IMG/VR virus record: IMGVR_UViG_3300008116_000453
Location: 1 to 25,031 of that record
DNA: 25,031 nt
From: a virus
Direction: 5' to 3' (one strand)
This document shows positions 7,468-21,552 of the stretch, piece by piece. The notes below the pieces were generated by a model, which was given only the letters and a program-made list of their open reading frames with translations, did not search any database and was not told the origin of the DNA. Within the stretch, counting starts at the first letter, position 1, and each line of letters begins with the position of its first letter. The position numbers were made by a program, and so were the translations under genes.

Positions 7468-7785
7468 TTAGTTATTTTTTACTTTACGCGATTTTTGTGG
7501 CGCAGGTGTTTTGCGGACACCAGAGGTTTCTTCTGTTTTTACTGGAGAAAGCTTTTGCATTTCTGTTACAGGTTTGTCAGAAACACTTGTTTGACTTTGT
7601 GCAGTCTTACCGCGTTCTTCCAAGATTCTGTCTTTGTCAATCCAGTAGATACCTAACAGCGTTGAACAAAGAAATCTGCGTAGTGCAGAAGGTTTTTTTT
7701 CAGTCCATAATAACAGACCTTTTTCATCTTGTGCGTCTTGTTTAGTAGTTGCACCAATGATGTAGTAGCCAATGAATTTTTTCAT
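7468..7785 (-). CDS. Hypothetical protein with basic disordered tail
   Basis: 105 residues from the ATG at 7785; the frame is open farther upstream but would cut deep into the DUF2829 gene. The first half looks folded (MKKFIGYYIIGATTKQDAQ ... LLLWTEKKPSALRRFL ... LLGIYWIDKD). The second half is rich in K, P, T, S and Q and ends in PAPQKSRKVKNN, probably disordered and able to bind nucleic acid or acidic partners. No family recognised. The leader contains a run of nine A residues, typical of this genome. It lies between the DUF2829 gene and the helicase gene and is probably co-transcribed with both. Confidence 0.7.
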   Translation of the reverse strand: MKKFIGYYIIGATTKQDAQDEKGLLLWTEKKPSALRRFLCSTLLGIYWIDKDRILEERGKTAQSQTSVSDKPVTEMQKLSPVKTEETSGVRKTPAPQKSRKVKNN

Positions 7786-7813
7786 AAAAAGTGTGAAGTG
7801 TTTTTTTTTAGGG

Positions 7814-8161
7814 TTAGAGTATAGACCAGTCTTCAGCAAGCATATCTGTTTGAGTTGCCAGCCAGCCGGTAAGAATTTTCTTGTCAGCAGTAAACATTCT
7901 GATGCTGCCAAGTGCCTCAAAAGTCTCTCCGCCTACCTGCTCTTCAATAACCTGGCGAAGTGCAGGGTCATGAATGGCTTTTGTAGGAACAGTTCCTGCG
8001 GGAAGCAAAAACAAAAACATGTTCTTGCCATTCCAGCCACTGCGTGCAACGCGATGTCCTTGCTTAAGCGCCTCAAGGGCTTCTCCAAAAGTGCCTTTGC
8101 CAAGGTGAAGTAGACCTAAAAGTCCAAAACCAAAAGGTCCAGATGATTCTGATTGTTCCAT
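7814..8161 (-). CDS. DUF2829 protein, Tad2-like (candidate anti-Thoeris)
   Basis: 115 residues. Residues 25-53 show the DUF2829 signature (FGEALEALKQGHRVARSGWNG ... MFLFLLPAG). The C-terminus has the second part: FTADKKILTGWLATQTD, then MLAEDWSIL. Proteins of this family include Tad2, which binds the cyclic ADP-ribose signal made by Thoeris ThsB and so blocks abortive defence. Whether this member binds such a signal is inferred from family membership only; some DUF2829 proteins have not been tested. A glycine-rich N-terminal extension (SGPFGFGLLGLLHLG) precedes the domain and is not typical of the shortest members. The gene is next to the holin gene, 8 bases downstream of its stop. Confidence 0.85.
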   Translation of the reverse strand: MEQSESSGPFGFGLLGLLHLGKGTFGEALEALKQGHRVARSGWNGKNMFLFLLPAGTVPTKAIHDPALRQVIEEQVGGETFEALGSIRMFTADKKILTGWLATQTDMLAEDWSIL

Positions 8162-14367: not shown

Positions 14368-14725
14368 TACTTAGTTTTTTAAGTTCTTCAATTTCAACAA
14401 GCACCCTGTCCATCTTCTCAGAAATTTTCAGGTTTATTTTGTTTGTGCTGCCATGTACATAGCACTCACTTAAAGACCTATAAATAGATTGCAACTCTTT
14501 CATTTTTGCATTGTTTGCAGAAGTTTTTGGTTCTTCTTTGCGATTCTTGTAAATAATTTCTAAAGCGTCATCTAAAGAAAAATCCATTCCTTTTTCATGC
14601 AGCTTTGCAAAAACATCTTGAATGGTTGCTACAATTGTCAAATTGTCAATGTGAACCTCAGTCATTGCAAGAGCGATTCTTACAAACTCAGGCTTCAGGG
14701 TCTTTAATGGATATGTTGTTTTCAT
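14357..14725 (-). CDS. Hypothetical helical protein
   Basis: 122 residues from the ATG at 14725; a TTG-started longer form (14749) would overlap the upstream gene more and is less likely. N-terminal part: MKTTYPLKTLKPEFVRIALA, then DNLTIVATIQDVFAKLHEKG, then DFSLDDALEIIYKNRKEEP. C-terminal part is a long helical stretch, KISEKMDRVLVEIEELKKLS, likely a coiled coil. Alpha-helical throughout, no cysteine-rich motif. No family recognised. It overlaps the upstream zinc-motif gene by 38 bases. Confidence 0.65.
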   Translation of the reverse strand: MKTTYPLKTLKPEFVRIALAMTEVHIDNLTIVATIQDVFAKLHEKGMDFSLDDALEIIYKNRKEEPKTSANNAKMKELQSIYRSLSECYVHGSTNKINLKISEKMDRVLVEIEELKKLSNGT

Positions 14726-15107
14726 GTCGGTATTGAAGTTCTTTAGCAATAAGTTTTAAGTGCCACTCCGCACCACCAAACGCTAAAACAGCTGCCAAAT
14801 GTTCATCAGTCATTTCAGCAAGTTTTACCCAGGTGAGTGGTTCTTTGCCACTTTTACCTCTTGAGCCACGTGTAGCATACTGTCTTACTTTTTCAAAAGG
14901 TTCATCTGCATATACAGTCAAAAGCTCAATTAATTCAAGATCTAATGCACCATGACGCAGATAGCTCATACCTCCATCAACAGAAGCATGATTAGGACAA
15001 CCACAAGTATTGTAATCATGGCGATGACGACTCACAATTGTTTTTGAACAAACTTTGCATAAAACAGCGTTATACACAATCTGTCTTTCAGTTATTTCTT
15101 TACTCAT
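14688..15107 (-). CDS. Conserved phage protein with zinc motif (RHDYxxC, VDGG)
   Basis: 139 residues from the ATG at 15107. Residues 15-45 hold CKVCSKTIVSRHRHDYNTCG, then CPNHASVDGGMSYLRHG: a CxxC plus CxC set that probably binds zinc, with the SRHRHDYxxCxC and VDGGxxYLR signature of a phage family of unknown role. Later blocks YATRGSRGKSGKEPLTWVKL and AEMTDEHLAAVLAFGGAEWH are also typical (RGxxGxxGxxPLxxVxLxxMxDxHLxAV). Longer forms upstream lack support. It follows 8 bases after the radical SAM gene and is probably part of the same transcript. Confidence 0.75.
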   Translation of the reverse strand: MSKEITERQIVYNAVLCKVCSKTIVSRHRHDYNTCGCPNHASVDGGMSYLRHGALDLELIELLTVYADEPFEKVRQYATRGSRGKSGKEPLTWVKLAEMTDEHLAAVLAFGGAEWHLKLIAKELQYRHENNISIKDPEA

Positions 15108-15115
15108 AGGATCAG

Positions 15116-15973
15116 TTAAAAAATGTAACGAATGTAATTCCAAGGGATGATGCTTTCATGCAGCTTTCTAAAATCAGCAATGTAACCAGCTTTCAAAGAA
15201 GCTTTGTATCTTAGGTTTACACCTCCATATTGAGATACTTTATCTTCTTGTATCTCAGGGCGCCAGATAAGACTCTCACCGGCGGCATTGTTTTTAAGGT
15301 TTTGATGATGTCTTGCTGTGTTATGCGTAAGAAAAATAACTTCTGCTTTTACAGCAGGTTTGTACTCGTCTTTGACAGCATTGTTCAAGTCTTCAAATAA
15401 TTTCTGATAGTTTTCAAGCCAGTTATCTGTGACGATTACTGGTGAAAAGTTCACATGTACATCATAACCTGCCTCAACAAACATGTTGATAGCATCAAGA
15501 CGTTCTTGAATGCTTGATGTTTCAGGCTCAAGCACATCTGCATAGCATTGTGGCATTAAAGAAAACCTGATGCGTATTTTTTTCTGAGGATTGTATAACA
15601 ACAGCTTCTTGTTCACATACTTGGTGGCAAAAGAACCCATAATTTTTTCGTTCATCTTGAAAAAATCAAATATCTGTTGCCAGTTGTGGTACTTCAGATG
15701 CAACGCAAAGTCTTCATTGCAAGAAATGTCGTAAGTGATCAGACTTTCATGTGTCTGATTAGGTTTTTCTACCTGAGCAAACCAGCTATGATTGTTGATA
15801 GCAGTGAGGATCTCTCCTGTGTTTTTGGCAATGTCTAAGCCAGTAGGCTTATGTCGCTTCATGTAACAGTAAACACATTGAAACAGGCATCCGTGCCCAA
15901 AGCTGGGTGAGATAAAGTCTGTGCTTCTGCCACTTTCTCTAATGAGCATGGATTTTCTGTCAATAATCTTCAT
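15116..15973 (-). CDS. Radical SAM protein, spore photoproduct lyase-like
   Basis: 285 residues. The iron-sulfur motif CLFQCVYC (C29, C33, C36; CxxxCxxC) follows ISPSFGHG, as in spore photoproduct lyase (SplB) and related enzymes, which split thymine photodimers using a 5'-deoxyadenosyl radical. Later blocks FSLMPQCYADVLEPETSSIQ, RLDAINMFVEAGYDVHVNFS, PVIVTDNWLENYQKL and AEVIFLTHNTARHH follow the Spl layout (xRxSxxP, R..A....GY.v...fxPV). It is shorter than typical SplB (about 340). Photodimer repair of phage DNA is possible; a DNA-modification role cannot be excluded. It overlaps the upstream zinc-ribbon gene by 14 bases, so the two are coupled. Confidence 0.85.
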   Translation of the reverse strand: MKIIDRKSMLIRESGRSTDFISPSFGHGCLFQCVYCYMKRHKPTGLDIAKNTGEILTAINNHSWFAQVEKPNQTHESLITYDISCNEDFALHLKYHNWQQIFDFFKMNEKIMGSFATKYVNKKLLLYNPQKKIRIRFSLMPQCYADVLEPETSSIQERLDAINMFVEAGYDVHVNFSPVIVTDNWLENYQKLFEDLNNAVKDEYKPAVKAEVIFLTHNTARHHQNLKNNAAGESLIWRPEIQEDKVSQYGGVNLRYKASLKAGYIADFRKLHESIIPWNYIRYIF

Positions 15974-16166
15974 GGTTTAATTTTCTTATTTCCCATTCAG
16001 TGTCTAGTGCCTGGTTATAACTGTAGTTTTTACTACATTTGCCACAGGTCAGGTGTTCATCATGGCGGATAGCCACGGTGTCTTCTTCAGTGATGTGCGG
16101 TTTACAATTGGTACAGTCACAAGCGTTTGGTGTCTTACAATGCGGACAGTAAAATGCTCCTTTCAT
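15960..16166 (-). CDS. Small zinc-ribbon protein
   Basis: 68 residues with several cysteine pairs: FYCPHCKTPNACDCTNCKPH (residues 6-24) and TCGKCSKNYSY (40-50). The first and last CxxC pairs look like a zinc ribbon with a CxCxxC insertion that could bind a second metal. The start ATG at 16166 overlaps the upstream stop by 4 bases and the end overlaps the radical SAM gene by 14 bases. Coupling on both sides suggests joint use; it may serve as a partner of the radical SAM enzyme or simply be a DNA- or RNA-binding ribbon. No function is known. Confidence 0.65.
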   Translation of the reverse strand: MKGAFYCPHCKTPNACDCTNCKPHITEEDTVAIRHDEHLTCGKCSKNYSYNQALDTEWEIRKLNHEDY

Positions 16167-16372
16167 AGCCAGCCAAGTTTTAAGTGTGCGATTTCTGTAC
16201 GTTGACCGGTGTAACTCTGATAGTCATCCCAATCATCATTGCAGTGATACACCACAAATGCGTGGTAAGGGTCTTCTGGAAAAGACTTAATGATACCATG
16301 TTCTTTAGCTCCTTTGTGCACATATGTGACTTTGGTGCCTTCAGTCATTAATTGCATGATTGTGTGAGTCAT
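16163..16372 (-). CDS. Conserved small phage protein
   Basis: 69 residues: MTHTIMQLMTEGTKVTYVHK, GAKEHGIIKSFPEDPYHAFV, VYHCNDDWDDYQSYTGQRTE, IAHLKLGWL. The order TKVTYxxxGxKExGIxKS, FVVYxCxDDWxxYxxYTGxRT and LxxGW is common in phage small proteins of unknown function; it looks like one small beta-barrel domain (SH3-like). A large hairpin (16376-16412) ends 3 bases before its ATG. It overlaps the zinc-ribbon gene by 4 bases. Confidence 0.7.
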   Translation of the reverse strand: MTHTIMQLMTEGTKVTYVHKGAKEHGIIKSFPEDPYHAFVVYHCNDDWDDYQSYTGQRTEIAHLKLGWL

Positions 16373-16375
16373 AGA

Positions 16376-16412
16376 AACAAAGGGTACAGCGCATTAACAC
16401 TGGACCCTTGTT
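16376..16412 (-). promoter_or_regulatory. Interrupted hairpin in front of the gene at 16163-16372
   Basis: Three helices stack: AACAA/TTGTT, GGGT/ACCC and CAGCG/CACTG (one G-U), separated by a one-base bulge and a 1x1 mismatch, with a 6-base loop. The total is 14 bp. It lies in the 49-base gap after the SPFH gene and ends 3 bases before the next ATG. There is no T tract, so translational control or RNA processing is more likely than termination. Confidence 0.5.
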
Positions 16413-16421
16413 CTCTACTAA

Positions 16422-17270
16422 TTAATTAACAGGTTTGTAAAGCATAGGTGCTTGACCGTATACAGGTAGCTTGCCATCCCAACGCTCAATCCATTGCTGT
16501 TTAAGCAACATTTCTGTAAGAGTGCGTTGTTTTAATGCATTAGCTTCTGCTTCTGCTTTAGCAGATGTCAAAAGTGCTTGTGCATTACCTTCAGCAGTAG
16601 CAACTTTAATTTTAGCTTGTGCTTCAGCAGATTTAACTTGGTTTTCAGCAGTAAGTGCTGCTTGAACTGCGTTGTTCTTAGCTTCAATAGCTTTCTTGAA
16701 AGTTTCTGGATACACAAGGTTAGAAGTAAACTGTGCCAAAACAAATCCTTCAGGATACAACTGTGACTCTAATACTTTACGCACTTTAACTTCAAACTGC
16801 TCACGATTAGAAATAAGTTCATCAGCAGTATAAGAGTTGGCTACAATACGAAAAGCGTCATACACAGCAGTTTTAAGAAATCCTTCTTCAATAGCGTCAA
16901 GAGTTAAGCGATACTTACCAAAAATATAAGGAACACGATCACGTTTGACAGCGTAGTTAACTATTGGAGAAACATGAAACTCTGAACCATCTTTTGAGTT
17001 AACAATAAATGACTCATCAGCAGCATCTTCACCGTTGTTTTTATACTCTTTATGCTGTACAAAAGTAGGAAACTCAATAATCTTTGTGCTGAAAGGATTG
17101 TAGAAGACCCATCCTGTAACTTCAGTAGCATCATCTACACCTTTACCATCTCCATAAAGATTTACTTTAACACCAACATGTCCTGCGTCAATACGCTCGC
17201 AACAAGACAAAGAAAATATCATTAGTAGCGCCGCAACAGATGATAATAAAGTTATTTTAGCTTGGTTCAT
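16422..17270 (-). CDS. SPFH/prohibitin-like membrane protein
   Basis: 282 residues. N-terminal signal or anchor: MNQAKITLLSSVAALLMIFS then LSCCERIDAGHVGVKVNL. The cysteine pair might be lipidated in Bacteroidota style (SLSC), or the segment may stay as an anchor. The SPFH (Band 7) domain follows: AGHVGVKVNLYG, GWVFYNPFSTKIIEFPTFVQ, then SKDGSEFHVSPIVNYAVKRD. The tail is a long A/E/K-rich coiled coil (AIEAKNNAVQAALTAENQVK, AEAQAKIKVATAEGNAQALL), the classic prohibitin/stomatin arrangement that forms rings on membranes. It overlaps the small membrane-protein gene by 14 bases and lies in one operon with the AAA+ and VWA genes. A host envelope or membrane-remodelling role is inferred. Confidence 0.85.
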   Translation of the reverse strand: MNQAKITLLSSVAALLMIFSLSCCERIDAGHVGVKVNLYGDGKGVDDATEVTGWVFYNPFSTKIIEFPTFVQHKEYKNNGEDAADESFIVNSKDGSEFHVSPIVNYAVKRDRVPYIFGKYRLTLDAIEEGFLKTAVYDAFRIVANSYTADELISNREQFEVKVRKVLESQLYPEGFVLAQFTSNLVYPETFKKAIEAKNNAVQAALTAENQVKSAEAQAKIKVATAEGNAQALLTSAKAEAEANALKQRTLTEMLLKQQWIERWDGKLPVYGQAPMLYKPVN

Positions 17271-17493
17271 TGTTTTTTGGTTTTTTGATATTGTTAATAA
17301 CCTTTTGAAATACTGTCACAATTATCGTGGACAGTGCAATGACAAGGGATAAGGCTATAATAAAACCCATGTACACTGCTATATTGCTGTCTTGATTCAT
17401 CAGCCAAAACGCAAGGCGTGATAGCTCCATAATGAGTGCAAAGACAAACAAATAGACAAAAATTTTAATATAAATGTTTTTGAATTGATTCAT
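17257..17493 (-). CDS. Small two-helix membrane protein
   Basis: 78 residues from the ATG at 17493 (another ATG at 17499 and a TTG at 17508 are also in frame). Two hydrophobic segments: FVYLFVFALIMELSRLAFWL and YMGFIIALSLVIALSTIIVT, joined by a short polar loop, then a basic tail KVINNIKKPKNNEPS. No family recognised. Its end overlaps the start of the SPFH gene by 14 bases, so the two are probably made together; a complex at the membrane is plausible. A strong hairpin lies just upstream. Confidence 0.7.
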   Translation of the reverse strand: MNQFKNIYIKIFVYLFVFALIMELSRLAFWLMNQDSNIAVYMGFIIALSLVIALSTIIVTVFQKVINNIKKPKNNEPS

Positions 17494-17510
17494 AAGCATT
17501 AGTAACAAAC

Positions 17511-17538
17511 CCAGATGCAGAAGTTACTCTGCACCTGG
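17511..17538 (-). terminator. Hairpin after the VWA gene, possible weak terminator
   Basis: CCAGATGCAGA (17511-17521) and TCTGCACCTGG (17528-17538) form an 11-bp stem with one G-U and a 6-base loop. On the minus strand GTTTGTT follows, a poor T tract. It lies 11 bases after the VWA stop and 17 bases before the membrane-protein ATG. Partial termination that lowers expression of the membrane genes, or RNA processing, is likely. Confidence 0.5.
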
Positions 17539-17549
17539 TGTTCATTTTG

Positions 17550-19382
17550 TTAAAGAGTGACCCGTTCTTTGATAAGCTTGTCTACTTTGCGTGACATATA
17601 GTTGATCATGTCATTAGGTAGATTTTTGATGTCAGTCATCTTGATAAAGTAGTCAAACATTTGAGCTGAAGGCACTGATTCTTCAATAGCAATCTGAATT
17701 ACCTGAAAACCTAAAGCCTGTGCTTTTTGAACTTTAGATTTGGTGTCTTCAATAGCAGATTTGCCACTGTAGCCTACAGCTGAAGGCTGACCATCTGAGA
17801 GTACAAACAACAAGCCCTGATTGGGTGTGTTTTTACGTACTCTTTTTGCAAAAGCAAGTATAGCGTCACCGTCGCGGTTGTTACCTCTTGCTTCAATAGA
17901 TCCTAAGGAAAAAGGATCTGTGACATATCCTTTCTCACGGTAAACACGCAAGTAAGTGAGATGTGTAGAAGGTGTATCTGCAGTATGACCATACATGTAC
18001 AAGTCTACATCAGGCATGTTTTTGAAAACTTCGTTAATGAATATGGCAGCTTGTCGTGCTTTGTCAATTTTGCTGCCTCCCATGGAGCCTGATTCATCAA
18101 TCAATACGCCCACACAGATTTTATTTGTGGTGACGCGTCCCATTCTTTCATAGATAGTAGGGACGTTTTGAACAGCTTCTGCAATCTTGTTGGTATCAAG
18201 TCTACCAGAACGCATTGACTTCATTACAAAAGCCTGGTCTTTACTTTTTCTTGCAAAAAGCTTTTGAAGCACAGCAGCTTTAGTACCGTCTACTTTGTGC
18301 AACGCATTTTTGTATGCGCTGACATTAGTGTCAGCTTTTAAGAAGACTACAGTGCTGTCTTCAGCAAAACCTTCTTCATCATAATCTTTAGAATTAGGTA
18401 TATGATGCGCGCCAGGTATCATGTCCTCAGTAAAATCTTCAAACTCTTTTGTGAAAGCTCCTTCTTTGTTACCTTCTTCAGCATTAATCAAAGATTTGAT
18501 CATCTCTTTAGCTATCTCATCCAGGTCTGATTTACTCAGCTTTGGTTTTGATTTGCCAGAAGATGACCCACCGTCTTCTTCATCATCTCCTTCTCCAGGT
18601 GGAGGTGGTTCTTCGTCTTCGGTATATTTGACAATGATGTTGGTTAAAGAAGTAGCCATGCTAGCACATTCTGCAGTTGTATTAGGTATGCCGCCATACT
18701 TTTTCAAAAGACGTTCAATAGCTGTTACAGGCTTTTCAAATTCTTCAAGATCACTTTCAGAAATATTAGCAGGATAGCGTAACATTTTGACAATAAGATC
18801 CATCAAACGCTTTTGAGCAGGTTCTTCTTCCCCTACAACTGGTGCATTTTCATAGCGATGGTTCTTGAACTTTTGAACAAACTTAAGATAACCTGGCAGA
18901 CGATCTGCAAGTTTTTTGTCAATACGTTCTGTATTCAACACAGTAAACAAAAGATCTTTCAGACCTACGTCTTTAGAGGTGTCTCTTGCTTTCATAGTCT
19001 GATAATACTCAGAAGTAGTCTGCATTGTGGCCAGTGCAGCATTTTGAATGGAAGCACCGTAAAACGCATCCAACAGCTCTGTGTCTTTGTCCAGGTAGTT
19101 TCCTTTCTTATCGCGCAACATGCTCAATGGAATTTGCACTGAAGGATTACGTGAATTTGCTTCTACGTTATTGGTGTATTCAAAGTCTTTAGGAACACCA
19201 ATTACCCTGAATATAGAACCAATCATCTTAGCAGCTACTTTCAGAGAGTCGTTATTGCGGACAAAGAATGAGGAGTAAGAATCTCTGCCTCTGTCCCAGC
19301 TGAAAAATCTTTTAGAGTCATCAGCAAATGTGTAGGCATCTTCTGCCCTGCGGTTAAACCAGTCTCTTGACAGTTTACTCAT
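17550..19382 (-). CDS. VWA-domain protein, CobT/MoxR-partner type
   Basis: 610 residues. The N-terminal 240 residues are helical with no clear family; about 255-285 is an acidic, P/G/S-rich linker (EDEEPPPPGEGDDEEDGG), as in CobT-type proteins. The C-terminal VWA domain has a full metal-ion adhesion site: DESGS (429-433), RDGD (503-506) and LSDGQPSA (528-535). VWA proteins of this type pair with MoxR/CobS-like ATPases, which remodel or load metals onto targets; the matching ATPase gene is directly upstream (19497-20783). CobST-like pairs occur in several large phages, where the target is unknown. The ATG at 19382 has an A-rich leader. Confidence 0.88.
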   Translation of the reverse strand: MSKLSRDWFNRRAEDAYTFADDSKRFFSWDRGRDSYSSFFVRNNDSLKVAAKMIGSIFRVIGVPKDFEYTNNVEANSRNPSVQIPLSMLRDKKGNYLDKDTELLDAFYGASIQNAALATMQTTSEYYQTMKARDTSKDVGLKDLLFTVLNTERIDKKLADRLPGYLKFVQKFKNHRYENAPVVGEEEPAQKRLMDLIVKMLRYPANISESDLEEFEKPVTAIERLLKKYGGIPNTTAECASMATSLTNIIVKYTEDEEPPPPGEGDDEEDGGSSSGKSKPKLSKSDLDEIAKEMIKSLINAEEGNKEGAFTKEFEDFTEDMIPGAHHIPNSKDYDEEGFAEDSTVVFLKADTNVSAYKNALHKVDGTKAAVLQKLFARKSKDQAFVMKSMRSGRLDTNKIAEAVQNVPTIYERMGRVTTNKICVGVLIDESGSMGGSKIDKARQAAIFINEVFKNMPDVDLYMYGHTADTPSTHLTYLRVYREKGYVTDPFSLGSIEARGNNRDGDAILAFAKRVRKNTPNQGLLFVLSDGQPSAVGYSGKSAIEDTKSKVQKAQALGFQVIQIAIEESVPSAQMFDYFIKMTDIKNLPNDMINYMSRKVDKLIKERVTL

Positions 19383-19434
19383 GGTGTTTTAGTTTTAAGT
19401 TTTGTCTGACAAATAATAAACATTTGCGACATCA

Positions 19435-19467
19435 GGGTGTGAGCAACACGAATGTCACTCACAACCC
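19435..19467 (-). promoter_or_regulatory. Hairpin between the AAA+ and VWA genes
   Basis: GGGTGTGAG and CTCACA-A-CCC pair over 9 bp with a one-base bulge, enclosing a 14-base loop. No T tract follows. The 114-base gap around it also has a TATTATTTG string on the minus strand (spacing one base off the -7 pattern) and nothing else recognisable. Function unknown; it may allow different levels of the two partner proteins. Confidence 0.4.
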
Positions 19468-19496
19468 TTTTGTCACAAACTCGCTGATCCTACAGC

Positions 19497-20783
19497 TTAA
19501 AACGCAGAAACGATAGACAATACCTTGCTGCGCTCACTCACACCAATGCTGTCTTCAAACAGCGGCATGATCGTGGCCAGCAATGCTTTGTCTACTTCAA
19601 AACCATCAGAGATAAGTGATGCAGCTTGCAAGGTGTGACGAACTGACACAGGAGTGGATAGTTCCTGTTCTTTGTACTGCTTGCGAATCTCATTAGAGAC
19701 TCTGACAATAGCAGTAGCAGCCTTTTCGTCTACGCCGGTGCGCAGTTTTAGCACATTAATCTCATCACGCTCTGAAGGATAGCCCAGCTCTACAGGAAAG
19801 AACCTGTCAAGCAAAGCGCGATCAATACTATGGGTGCCAGAATACTCTGAACCCAGGTTTGCAGTAGCAAAGAACACGGTGTTTTCATGCACTGCAATCC
19901 TGCGCTCACCATCTTCACAAGCGATATCTACAGGCAAGTAACGTCGCTTGTCTAAGCATGGAAATAGGATATTATTAGCTGCAAGTGGAGAGCGGTTAAG
20001 CTCATCAAGCAGTACAATACCACCGCTCTGAATGTGAGAAACAAAAGGTGCTTGTTCAAACGAAGAGTGACCTTCCTTGTTTAGACGGTGTACACCTAAC
20101 AGAGCGCTTTGGGCGTCTTGTACAGTACCCATATCTTGGATATAAAGCTCTTTTCCCATAGCAGTTGCCAAGTGGTAAAGAATTTCTGTTTTACCGCTAC
20201 CAGTAGGTCCTACAAGTAAGGTGTTTTCACCACGCAGCGCGTTGCGGCACATCAAGAACCAGATGTCTGGATCAATGTGAAAGCCAACATCTTCTGTTTT
20301 AGGTACAGGATAATGCGCTGCAATCGTGCGACGAATGTTGGTTCCAGTAGATGTTGTTCCTGGCTCTTCAGGCTTAGGAGCAATCTTGTCGTCCCAGACA
20401 TATTCATAGCCGTATGAAGCCATCTGTTCAGCCATTTTCTTGGCGTATTCTACACCATAGTCAGCGCTGTCCAGGAAATAATCAACAGCAAAGTCACAGA
20501 CTTTCTGCAAACGCTCTTTGTCAAGTGATGACAAAGGAAATAGGTTACCTTCAAAGGAAAGAGCGATGATGTTCTCTTTGCGAATATGCAAGTGATCTGC
20601 TTCAGGAAAGTCATAGCCGTCAGAAACAAAAATGGTTTCCAAAGGAAATTTAGCAAAATCAGCAATAGAAGTTGTAATCTTCAAATCTTCAATGCTACGG
20701 GTGAGAGTTTTCTCAAATGCCTGTTTAGGCAATGTTTTAATTTGGTAGCTAGTACCTTGAATAAAGCTTTGTAGTAGGATCAT
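19497..20783 (-). CDS. MoxR/CobS-like AAA+ ATPase
   Basis: 428 residues. An N-terminal region of about 165 residues with no recognised family precedes the AAA+ core. Walker A is GPTGSGKT (192-199), Walker B IVLLDELNR (256-264), sensor 1 FFATAN (304-309), and the arginine-finger region DRALLDRF (321-328). ALLGVHRL and FEQAPFVSHIQSGG are typical of the MoxR/dynein-related (AAA_5) group. Such ATPases form hexamers and work with a VWA adaptor; the VWA gene follows directly. Start is the ATG at 20783 with the A-rich leader GACAAAAATG. This pair looks functional. Confidence 0.88.
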   Translation of the reverse strand: MILLQSFIQGTSYQIKTLPKQAFEKTLTRSIEDLKITTSIADFAKFPLETIFVSDGYDFPEADHLHIRKENIIALSFEGNLFPLSSLDKERLQKVCDFAVDYFLDSADYGVEYAKKMAEQMASYGYEYVWDDKIAPKPEEPGTTSTGTNIRRTIAAHYPVPKTEDVGFHIDPDIWFLMCRNALRGENTLLVGPTGSGKTEILYHLATAMGKELYIQDMGTVQDAQSALLGVHRLNKEGHSSFEQAPFVSHIQSGGIVLLDELNRSPLAANNILFPCLDKRRYLPVDIACEDGERRIAVHENTVFFATANLGSEYSGTHSIDRALLDRFFPVELGYPSERDEINVLKLRTGVDEKAATAIVRVSNEIRKQYKEQELSTPVSVRHTLQAASLISDGFEVDKALLATIMPLFEDSIGVSERSKVLSIVSAF

Positions 20784-20810: not shown

Positions 20811-21404
20811 TTAGTAAATCGCAAAACCATTGCAGTTTTGAAGAAAGAGCGCAAAGTCTCTCATGTTGTCAGTAGTTGTACCATGTGAGGTTTGATAAGC
20901 AATGCCGTCTAGTTCTGCGTCTCCAAAAAAGTATGTGTCGTACTTTTCATTGAGACGCTTCAGTTTTTCTGGATCATCTAGGGTGCAAGTAACAATGTCA
21001 CCACGCTCATTTGGCGTTTTGAACGTCCAATAACCCATATTTAAGCTCACAAACCTGTGTCCTGCTGCTTCTATTGCGGAAGCGTGTGAATTGAAGGCTT
21101 CAGCGAGCTTTAAGCAGTGTACAGGGTCTGTGATACCGCCACCGCTATTGCTACCAAGAGCATTAATCTGTTCTTCAGGAATGTTCAGGTCATACTTTCT
21201 ATTGAAATGAAACACCAACATTTGCAAGGGTCGCCAGTGCCACCAGTTGTTTCTGAAGTAATAACCAGGGTTTTGGTCTTCCCATTTGTCAAGTTTATCG
21301 TAATACTCAGTGCGTTCTTCAGCAGAAAGTTCGCTGAAATTGTCAGGATAAGAGGGTTTTTCGCTTGTCAGCGCAGGCTTTAAGCCATAAATGTCTACTC
21401 CCAT
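20811..21404 (-). CDS. Conserved hypothetical phage protein
   Basis: 197 residues from the ATG at 21404. N-terminus MGVDIYGLKPALTSEKPSYP is followed by YYFRNNWWHWRPLQMLVFHF, a motif pair (MGxDIYGxxP, YFRNNxWxWRPL) seen in many phage and bacterial proteins of unknown function. Later part: GGGITDPVHCLKLAEAFNSH and helical/beta segments with no clear site. The open frame extends to 21470, but this would translate the repeat region at 21431-21466, so the internal ATG is preferred. It lies 27 bases upstream of the MoxR-like gene and is probably in the same transcript. Confidence 0.75.
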   Translation of the reverse strand: MGVDIYGLKPALTSEKPSYPDNFSELSAEERTEYYDKLDKWEDQNPGYYFRNNWWHWRPLQMLVFHFNRKYDLNIPEEQINALGSNSGGGITDPVHCLKLAEAFNSHASAIEAAGHRFVSLNMGYWTFKTPNERGDIVTCTLDDPEKLKRLNEKYDTYFFGDAELDGIAYQTSHGTTTDNMRDFALFLQNCNGFAIY

Positions 21405-21430
21405 AAACAGTAAATTTTTATAAGGGGGAT

Positions 21431-21552
21431 GGTCACCAGTGACCAGGGGGATAGTCATGGGTGACCACACCCCCTAGTCATGGGTGACTAGTAAGGAATA
21501 AGAAGAATTAAAAAGAGAAAGGCGCGCAGTTGAGGGGTGGTCATGGATGACT
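21431..21552. repeat. Four-copy 14-bp dyad cluster (RGTCA-N4-TGACY)
   Basis: Four imperfect copies of one palindromic motif: GGTCACCAGTGACC (21431-21444), AGTCATGGGTGACC (21453-21466), AGTCATGGGTGACT (21476-21489) and GGTCATGGATGACT (21539-21552). Most are flanked by G- or C-runs (GGGGAT, ACCCCC). Centre-to-centre distances are 22, 23 and 63 bases, near two and six helical turns, so a bound dimer would sit on one face of the DNA. A purine-rich AT-rich stretch (about 21488-21520) lies between copies 3 and 4. The cluster is in the gap (21405-21562) between two minus-strand genes, close to an HTH gene (22011-22331). Operators or origin iterons are the likely roles. Confidence 0.8.

Follow-up and report, generated by a model that had tools for sequence, protein, structure and literature searches.

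The question raised by the locus described here is whether seven closely spaced phage genes act as one system or only share a neighborhood. The genes encode a MoxR-class AAA+ ATPase, its VWA partner, a small hairpin protein with two transmembrane (TM) segments, an SPFH protein, two further small proteins and a SplB-like radical SAM enzyme, and they occupy positions 15,116 to 20,783 of the virus record IMGVR_UViG_3300008116_000453 from IMG/VR (Table 1). Throughout, "the window" means the whole stretch that was analyzed, 25,031 bases long. An initial annotation had read the seven genes as a single membrane-linked system for ATP-driven remodeling or metal loading. We propose instead, with a probability of about 0.6, that the region consists of two separable pairs, MoxR-VWA and hairpin-SPFH, together with accessory genes, in an accessory-gene slot of one co-directional block. 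What is new here is a general hairpin-SPFH unit, a clade of predicted pseudo-peptidases among the VWA proteins, and the repeated juxtaposition of such units with AAA+ motors.

RESULTS AND DISCUSSION

Two pairs and a set of accessory genes

Protein matches identify the window, 25 kb long, as part of a crAss-like phage genome: its RecA/Sak4-type ATPase is ~43% identical to those of crAss-like phages such as cr125_1, and homologues of its primase, SNF2 and lysozyme proteins match Bacteroides phage PhiCrAssBcn1. At the DNA level crAss phages matched just 3% of the region, and protein searches were therefore used, with family assignments taken from Pfam, PHROGs and NCBIfam. All seven open reading frames (ORFs) were found where the initial annotation had placed them, on the minus strand. 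The tight packing that it described is real, with gaps of −28 to +114 nucleotides (nt), but all called genes of the window lie on that strand with similar spacing, and packing alone is therefore no mark of one unit.

Gene neighborhoods in relatives separate the seven. Of 74 related viral contigs that reach far enough upstream, 73 have MoxR directly upstream of VWA (these and the following contig counts for MoxR, VWA, SPFH and SplB-like neighbors include some near-duplicates), so that the pairing proposed earlier holds as a true core pair, and a probable chaperone, of the phage group. In contrast, of 59 contigs that extend far enough, only 10 have SPFH downstream of VWA. In two near relatives (L007 and L024) VWA is followed directly by the SplB-like gene and hairpin-SPFH is missing; both sit inside an SPFH-bearing clade of the VWA tree, which requires SPFH to have been gained or lost at least four times. 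Two 123-kb contigs (L015 and L020) keep MoxR-VWA and have SPFH nowhere, and Bacteroides phage BS162P1 likewise carries MoxR-VWA and gave no SPFH match. Conversely, VWA is absent from 19 of 30 large SPFH contigs, among them L036 and L037 (177 and 230 kb), which carry an SPFH protein 82% identical to that of the window, with its hairpin, and no VWA match. The gene-neighborhood search proposed with the initial annotation thus recovered the MoxR-VWA and hairpin-SPFH pairs, but not the seven genes together. We reject a seven-gene operon, as SPFH, the SplB-like gene, the zinc ribbon and the small protein vary independently of MoxR-VWA in relatives; what survives of the earlier interpretation is two true pairs, which stand side by side in further phage groups as well.

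Table 1. Genes of the region, in window coordinates
Gene product	Coordinates	Strand	Length and features	Basis of assignment
MoxR-class AAA+ ATPase (CbbQ/NorQ/Midasin-like)	19497..20783	−	428 aa	Pfam, PDB phmmer, invariant motifs in 16 relatives
VWA partner	17550..19382	−	610 aa	Foldseek, second aligner, motif alignment
Two-TM hairpin protein	17257..17508	−	83 aa, TTG start	Hydropathy, hairpin-family alignment
SPFH/Band 7 protein, prohibitin-type	16422..17270	−	282 aa	Band_7, phrog_200, fold matches
Small protein, accessory	16163..16372	−	69 aa	Homologues in varying order
Zinc-ribbon-like protein	15960..16166	−	68 aa, CPHC + CGKC	Sequence, no family match
SplB-family radical SAM protein	15116..15973	−	285 aa, N-terminally short	TIGR03886, 4fhc alignment

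The MoxR-VWA pair

By sequence, the ATPase is placed in the Midasin/NorQ/CbbQ branch. Pfam AAA_5 (2e-18) and CbbQ_C (4e-10) both match above cut-off, and phmmer against the PDB returns Midasin (8e-36), NorQ (4e-21) and CbbQ (5e-13). Its AAA+ motifs are intact, as the initial annotation had stated, with Walker A (residues 192-199), Walker B (about 256-261), sensor and Arg residues invariant in 16 of 16 relatives. In four relatives, MoxR is split by group I introns (RF00028) that seem to lie close to the codons for Walker A and Walker B (L159:7687-7965; L170:7688-7955; L172:6189-6509 and 7708-7939; L174:8774-9073), which fits a core gene.

The VWA partner comprises a helical N-terminal domain, an acidic linker (about residues 257-278) and a C-terminal VWA domain. 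Foldseek with its AlphaFold model (mean predicted local distance difference test [pLDDT] score of 66) ranks the VWA domain of NorD, from NorQ-NorD complexes, first and the metal ion-dependent adhesion site (MIDAS) domains of Midasin next. A second aligner scores Midasin (Z 17.5) and NorD (Z 17.0) above the best unrelated VWA, which reaches 13.7. These matches span residues 336-585 only and so say nothing on the N-domain. As modeled, the VWA fold is of the MoxR-partner type, like NorD and Midasin. The metal site had been described as intact, and this stands for DxSxS (DESGS at residues 429-433 in the window; present in 81 of 81 VWA proteins) and for the aspartate (SDG in 78 of 81), but not for the threonine position, which reads NRDG in 67 of 81. 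In the N-domain, 25 VWA homologues, including those of the cultivated Bacteroides phage BS162P1 and of large phages, carry HExxH and ED(E/R) motifs. HExxH has been lost in 56 proteins, namely the window clade and its neighbors; in the window protein QNAAL replaces it and NTER stands at the ED(E/R) motif. Judged by these motifs, the N-domain of the window protein is an inactivated (pseudo-)metallopeptidase.

By analogy with NorQD (PMC9976466), we favor a mechanism of ATP-driven client remodeling through MIDAS contact. MoxR hexamers would each encircle a single VWA protein and burn ATP, the MIDAS of the VWA protein would dock on an acidic patch of the client while the pseudo-peptidase N-domain may help to recognize it, and the client would then be remodeled as by NorQD and CbbQO. 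The likeliest role of the pair, again by analogy, would be in virion assembly, as proposed for phage homologues.

The metal-loading half of the initial reading would instead make MoxR-VWA a metal chelatase of the CobS-CobT kind. MoxR does match phrog_249 (porphyrin biosynthesis, 1e-37), and the VWA protein matches CobT_C (2e-5) and phrog_17276 CobT (2e-4) and resembles CobT in its acidic linker and NRDG loop. However, the 25-kb window holds no CobN-sized gene (the largest ORF has 610 aa), the best folds are NorD and the Midasin VWA with no chelatase among the top rows, and NorQD remodels its target instead of carrying metal (PMC9976466). With nothing behind a metal-loading role except family analogy, we consider it very improbable and keep to client remodeling.

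Two memberships in conflict systems were also considered and rejected. A PADLOC scan returned generic AAA+ matches only, with none for VWA, SPFH or spore photoproduct lyase (SPL), which gives no ground for placing the region among anti-phage defenses. Nor is it the MoxR-vWA ternary conflict system (Kaur et al. 2020, PMC7159879), as MoxR scores 16.9 bits against the bpMoxR profile, under the cut-off of 27, and the neighbors scanned include no VMAP/propeller third gene.

The hairpin-SPFH pair

Hundreds of phages encode SPFH proteins (701 records), mostly annotated "lipoprotein" or "hypothetical". That of the window matches Band_7 (3e-19; 70 bits, cut-off 23.6) and phrog_200 (1e-63). Prohibitin is its best match in both sequence and fold (fold E value 3e-10), and the fold also matches HflK/C of FtsH-HflK/C; the structure model (mean pLDDT 66) has a long C-terminal helix at residues 189-263. 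Cys24, which ends the hydrophobic N-terminus, is invariant in 7 relatives and nearly so in 18, and on this basis the protein is probably a lipoprotein.

The hairpin gene overlaps the SPFH start by 14 nt, and hydropathy and near-identical homologues (L028 and L029) put its TM segments at about residues 11 and 50. Neither Pfam nor PHROGs gave anything significant for it, for the 69-aa protein or for the zinc-ribbon-like protein. The pairing is nevertheless general. We scanned the 80 loci most like the window's SPFH, a sample biased to phages of Bacteroidota; a small two-TM ORF lies directly upstream of SPFH in 39 of 52 nonredundant loci from viral contigs, but for the 278 other genes of 180-500 aa encoded in these loci the count is 7 (Fisher's P = 3e-32). 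Eight reference phages of unrelated hosts have the same arrangement: Burkholderia phage Maja, Salmonella phage PVPSE1 (with one small gene between hairpin and SPFH), Stenotrophomonas phage Pokken, Myxococcus phage Mx1, Prevotella phage Lak-B5 and the crAss-like phages cr85_1, cr126_1 and cr128_1. The cultivated PhiCrAssBcn1 carries the pair as well. The hairpins align on a short loop, L-x-x-x-[SN]-[ST]...G. The pairing of a two-helix membrane protein with SPFH noted in the initial annotation is thus borne out, and hairpin-SPFH is a true, mobile accessory pair. Four chromosomal Bacteroidota SPFH genes, up to 67% identical, have no two-TM ORF directly upstream. Because the hairpin is widespread beside phage SPFH genes and absent from that position in these four, it is probably a partner particular to phages, joined to an SPFH gene of host origin. 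That most phage SPFH genes examined carry a conserved hairpin partner yields a concrete two-gene unit for deletion experiments and assays in cultivated phages.

Several further features accompany hairpins and SPFH genes. In many large-phage hairpins (L056, L057, L062, L073-L078, L083, L085 and L097) a GETELDY motif recurs in the C-terminal tail and may serve as a docking peptide. One chromosomal Bacteroidales SPFH gene comes directly after a multi-TM gene that looks BI-1/YccA-like by eye, presumably of the family associated in E. coli with FtsH-HflK/C (L237:3167-4747). Finally, NAD-salvage genes (nicotinamide phosphoribosyltransferase, NMN adenylyltransferase and PRPP synthetase) surround or adjoin hairpin-SPFH in Mx1, cr126_1 and cr85_1 (L227:4176-7478; L224:3093-6807; L230:2501-5810), which suggests a counter-defense neighborhood.

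As to function, we propose that a lipidated N-terminus or a signal anchor would hold SPFH subunits in the membrane, that these would assemble a dome like those of prohibitin and HflK/C, that the two-TM hairpin would sit in the ring and tune it, and that the pair may reshape host membrane proteostasis (quality control of the FtsH type) or shield the membrane during infection. A narrower possibility is that hairpin-SPFH is a lysis-timing or membrane-protection unit that came to lie next to MoxR-VWA by chance. In Kayvirus, lysis genes (lysK and tgl) lie on either side of MbpV-MbpS (PMC7150955); cr126_1 encodes a peptidoglycan hydrolase two genes downstream of SPFH, and PhiCrAssBcn1 has one near SPFH; and the NAD-salvage neighbors described above are of a kind that counters NADase defenses. 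However, neighbors vary between phages, and in the window eight genes and 3.5 kb separate MoxR from the lysozyme-like gene upstream of it, so that this assignment is possible but on the unlikely side.

Are the two pairs linked?

Several observations weigh against our preferred reading. MoxR and VWA lie upstream in 13 of 53 nonredundant SPFH loci, with gene centers 1.6-4.8 kb away, and in 7 of the 11 long contigs that hold both pairs, 1.1-1.9 kb separates them; the two are neighbors more often than expected of fully independent units. Moreover, the lipobox is poor in some SPFH homologues, where K or N occupies −2 and lipidation is uncertain, and the VWA and SPFH models each have a mean pLDDT of only 66.

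Such adjacency would be expected if MoxR, VWA, hairpin and SPFH formed one membrane-anchored remodeling machine, in which the cytosolic tail of the hairpin would link the SPFH dome to a cytosolic MoxR-VWA motor, much as HflK/C and prohibitin domes surround FtsH, the structural precedent for such an assembly. Phages of at least two distinct backgrounds have the two pairs next to each other. Besides the window type, nine large-phage loci read VWA-MoxR-x-hairpin-SPFH, the reverse of the MoxR/VWA order in the window, and a third SPFH subfamily occurs in L018, where the same slot holds a divergent SPFH protein, 29% identical and accompanied by its own hairpin, and similarly in L187. The hairpins of the window type and of jumbo phages differ in loop motif, favoring independent juxtaposition, and the SPFH tree requires the label "next to VWA" to have changed at least five times, although, with the base of that tree lacking resolution and shared synteny inflating the counts, these changes do not prove that the adjacency arose independently. 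In another phage group a Clp-like AAA+ gene takes the place of MoxR-VWA ~1.6-1.8 kb upstream of SPFH (L061:4032-6050; L093:4241-6271), and is found upstream of hairpin-SPFH in L061 and L093-98.

Against a single machine, SPFH is not downstream in 49 of the 59 VWA contigs, 19 of the 30 large SPFH contigs lack VWA, and L007 and L024 lost SPFH while keeping MoxR-VWA. In the remaining 4 of the 11 long contigs the pairs lie 24 kb apart (three contigs of one lineage) or 50 kb apart (one). If SPFH is a lipoprotein, its SPFH domain and MoxR-VWA would be in different compartments, and with the deep SPFH branches lacking resolution, the adjacency could stem from shared ancestry. We therefore regard one machine as unlikely, though a serious rival, and hold as no more than tentative the wider idea that large phages repeatedly joined a MoxR-VWA or Clp-like motor to a two-TM hairpin and SPFH dome as a viral counterpart of HflK/C-FtsH. 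Were the juxtaposition with AAA+ motors functional, phages would run SPFH-AAA+ membrane machines of their own. We retain two separable pairs as the preferred reading, with a functional link between them possible but unproven.

The SplB-like enzyme and other neighbors

The last of the seven genes encodes a protein that matches Pfam SPL (1e-23) and TIGR03886 (4e-91; 305.7 bits, below the curated cut-off of 437.55) over profile positions 63-346; the score probably falls short because the N-terminus does. Its cysteines 29, 33 and 36, which form a CxxxCxxC cluster, and Cys85 are kept in 28-29 of 29 proteins. Cys85 aligns with the SPL region "EAACTSD" of 4fhc, at a cysteine that we take to be the hydrogen donor. 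The gene lies downstream of VWA in 28 of 59 contigs with enough sequence. Because it is present without SPFH in many relatives and absent from L021, a 121-kb contig whose SPFH is 98% identical to that of the window, it is a third, independent, DNA-repair-like gene outside both pairs.

The 69-aa and zinc-ribbon-like genes are accessory and come and go independently: homologues of the former occur in variable gene order among relatives and also near SPFH in the unrelated L036, and the latter is sporadic. In some relatives the variable slot downstream of VWA is taken by a second AAA+ ATPase of 413-431 aa, BCS1-like by eye (L005:11441-12682; L011:10302-11597). On either side of the seven, a 219-aa protein with no family match is encoded 27 nt upstream of MoxR (window 20811-21470), a place it also has in many close relatives, and the gene after the SplB-like one, which it overlaps by 28 nt, encodes a DUF7695 domain (window 14688-15143; Pfam 2e-13).

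Comparison with known systems

Literature searches returned nothing joining crAss-like phages and MoxR, nor anything on radical SAM spore photoproduct lyases in phage genomes; the one paper that brings together phage, MoxR, VWA and SPFH mentions SPFH solely among its references. The only published parallel found for hairpin-SPFH is Kayvirus MbpV/MbpS (PMC7150955), likewise a small TM protein near a phage SPFH gene; MbpV is described as having 102 aa, one TM segment and a lysis-gene context, and the comparison is by description only. Bacterial NfeD-SPFH operons also encode a small membrane partner beside the SPFH gene, NfeD being the usual one, which packs three hydrophobic stretches plus a beta domain into 140-150 aa (PMC2636767). 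The hairpin is not an NfeD, since it has no NfeD Pfam match, two TM segments in 83 aa and no beta domain. With HflK-HflC-FtsH and prohibitins the phage protein shares the SPFH fold and long C-terminal helix, but the window holds a single SPFH gene with a hairpin partner and no tandem second SPFH gene as in HflK-HflC. The SplB-like protein has the CxxxCxxC cluster and aligned Cys85 of TIGR03886 spore photoproduct lyases, from which it differs in its short N-terminus, its score below the curated cut-off and its being phage-encoded.

MoxR-VWA resembles the activases NorQ-NorD and CbbQ-CbbO (PMC9976466; PDB 9qh4, 9qh6 and 9qhd) in MoxR sequence class, VWA fold and DxSxS MIDAS, and differs in having no known respiratory or Rubisco client, another N-terminal domain and NRDG at the MIDAS threonine. 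It shares its layout with the pair of MoxR and metallopeptidase-vWA genes of jumbo phages, proposed to assist virion assembly (Iyer et al. 2021, PMC7824862), in which the genes are likewise adjacent and the partner runs from N-domain through acidic linker to C-terminal VWA. The window phage, in contrast, is crAss-like and not a group 2.2 jumbo phage, and the 56 proteins of its clade lack the HExxH that 25 more distant homologues keep. This loss offers a natural contrast between peptidase and predicted pseudo-peptidase forms of a phage MoxR-VWA chaperone.

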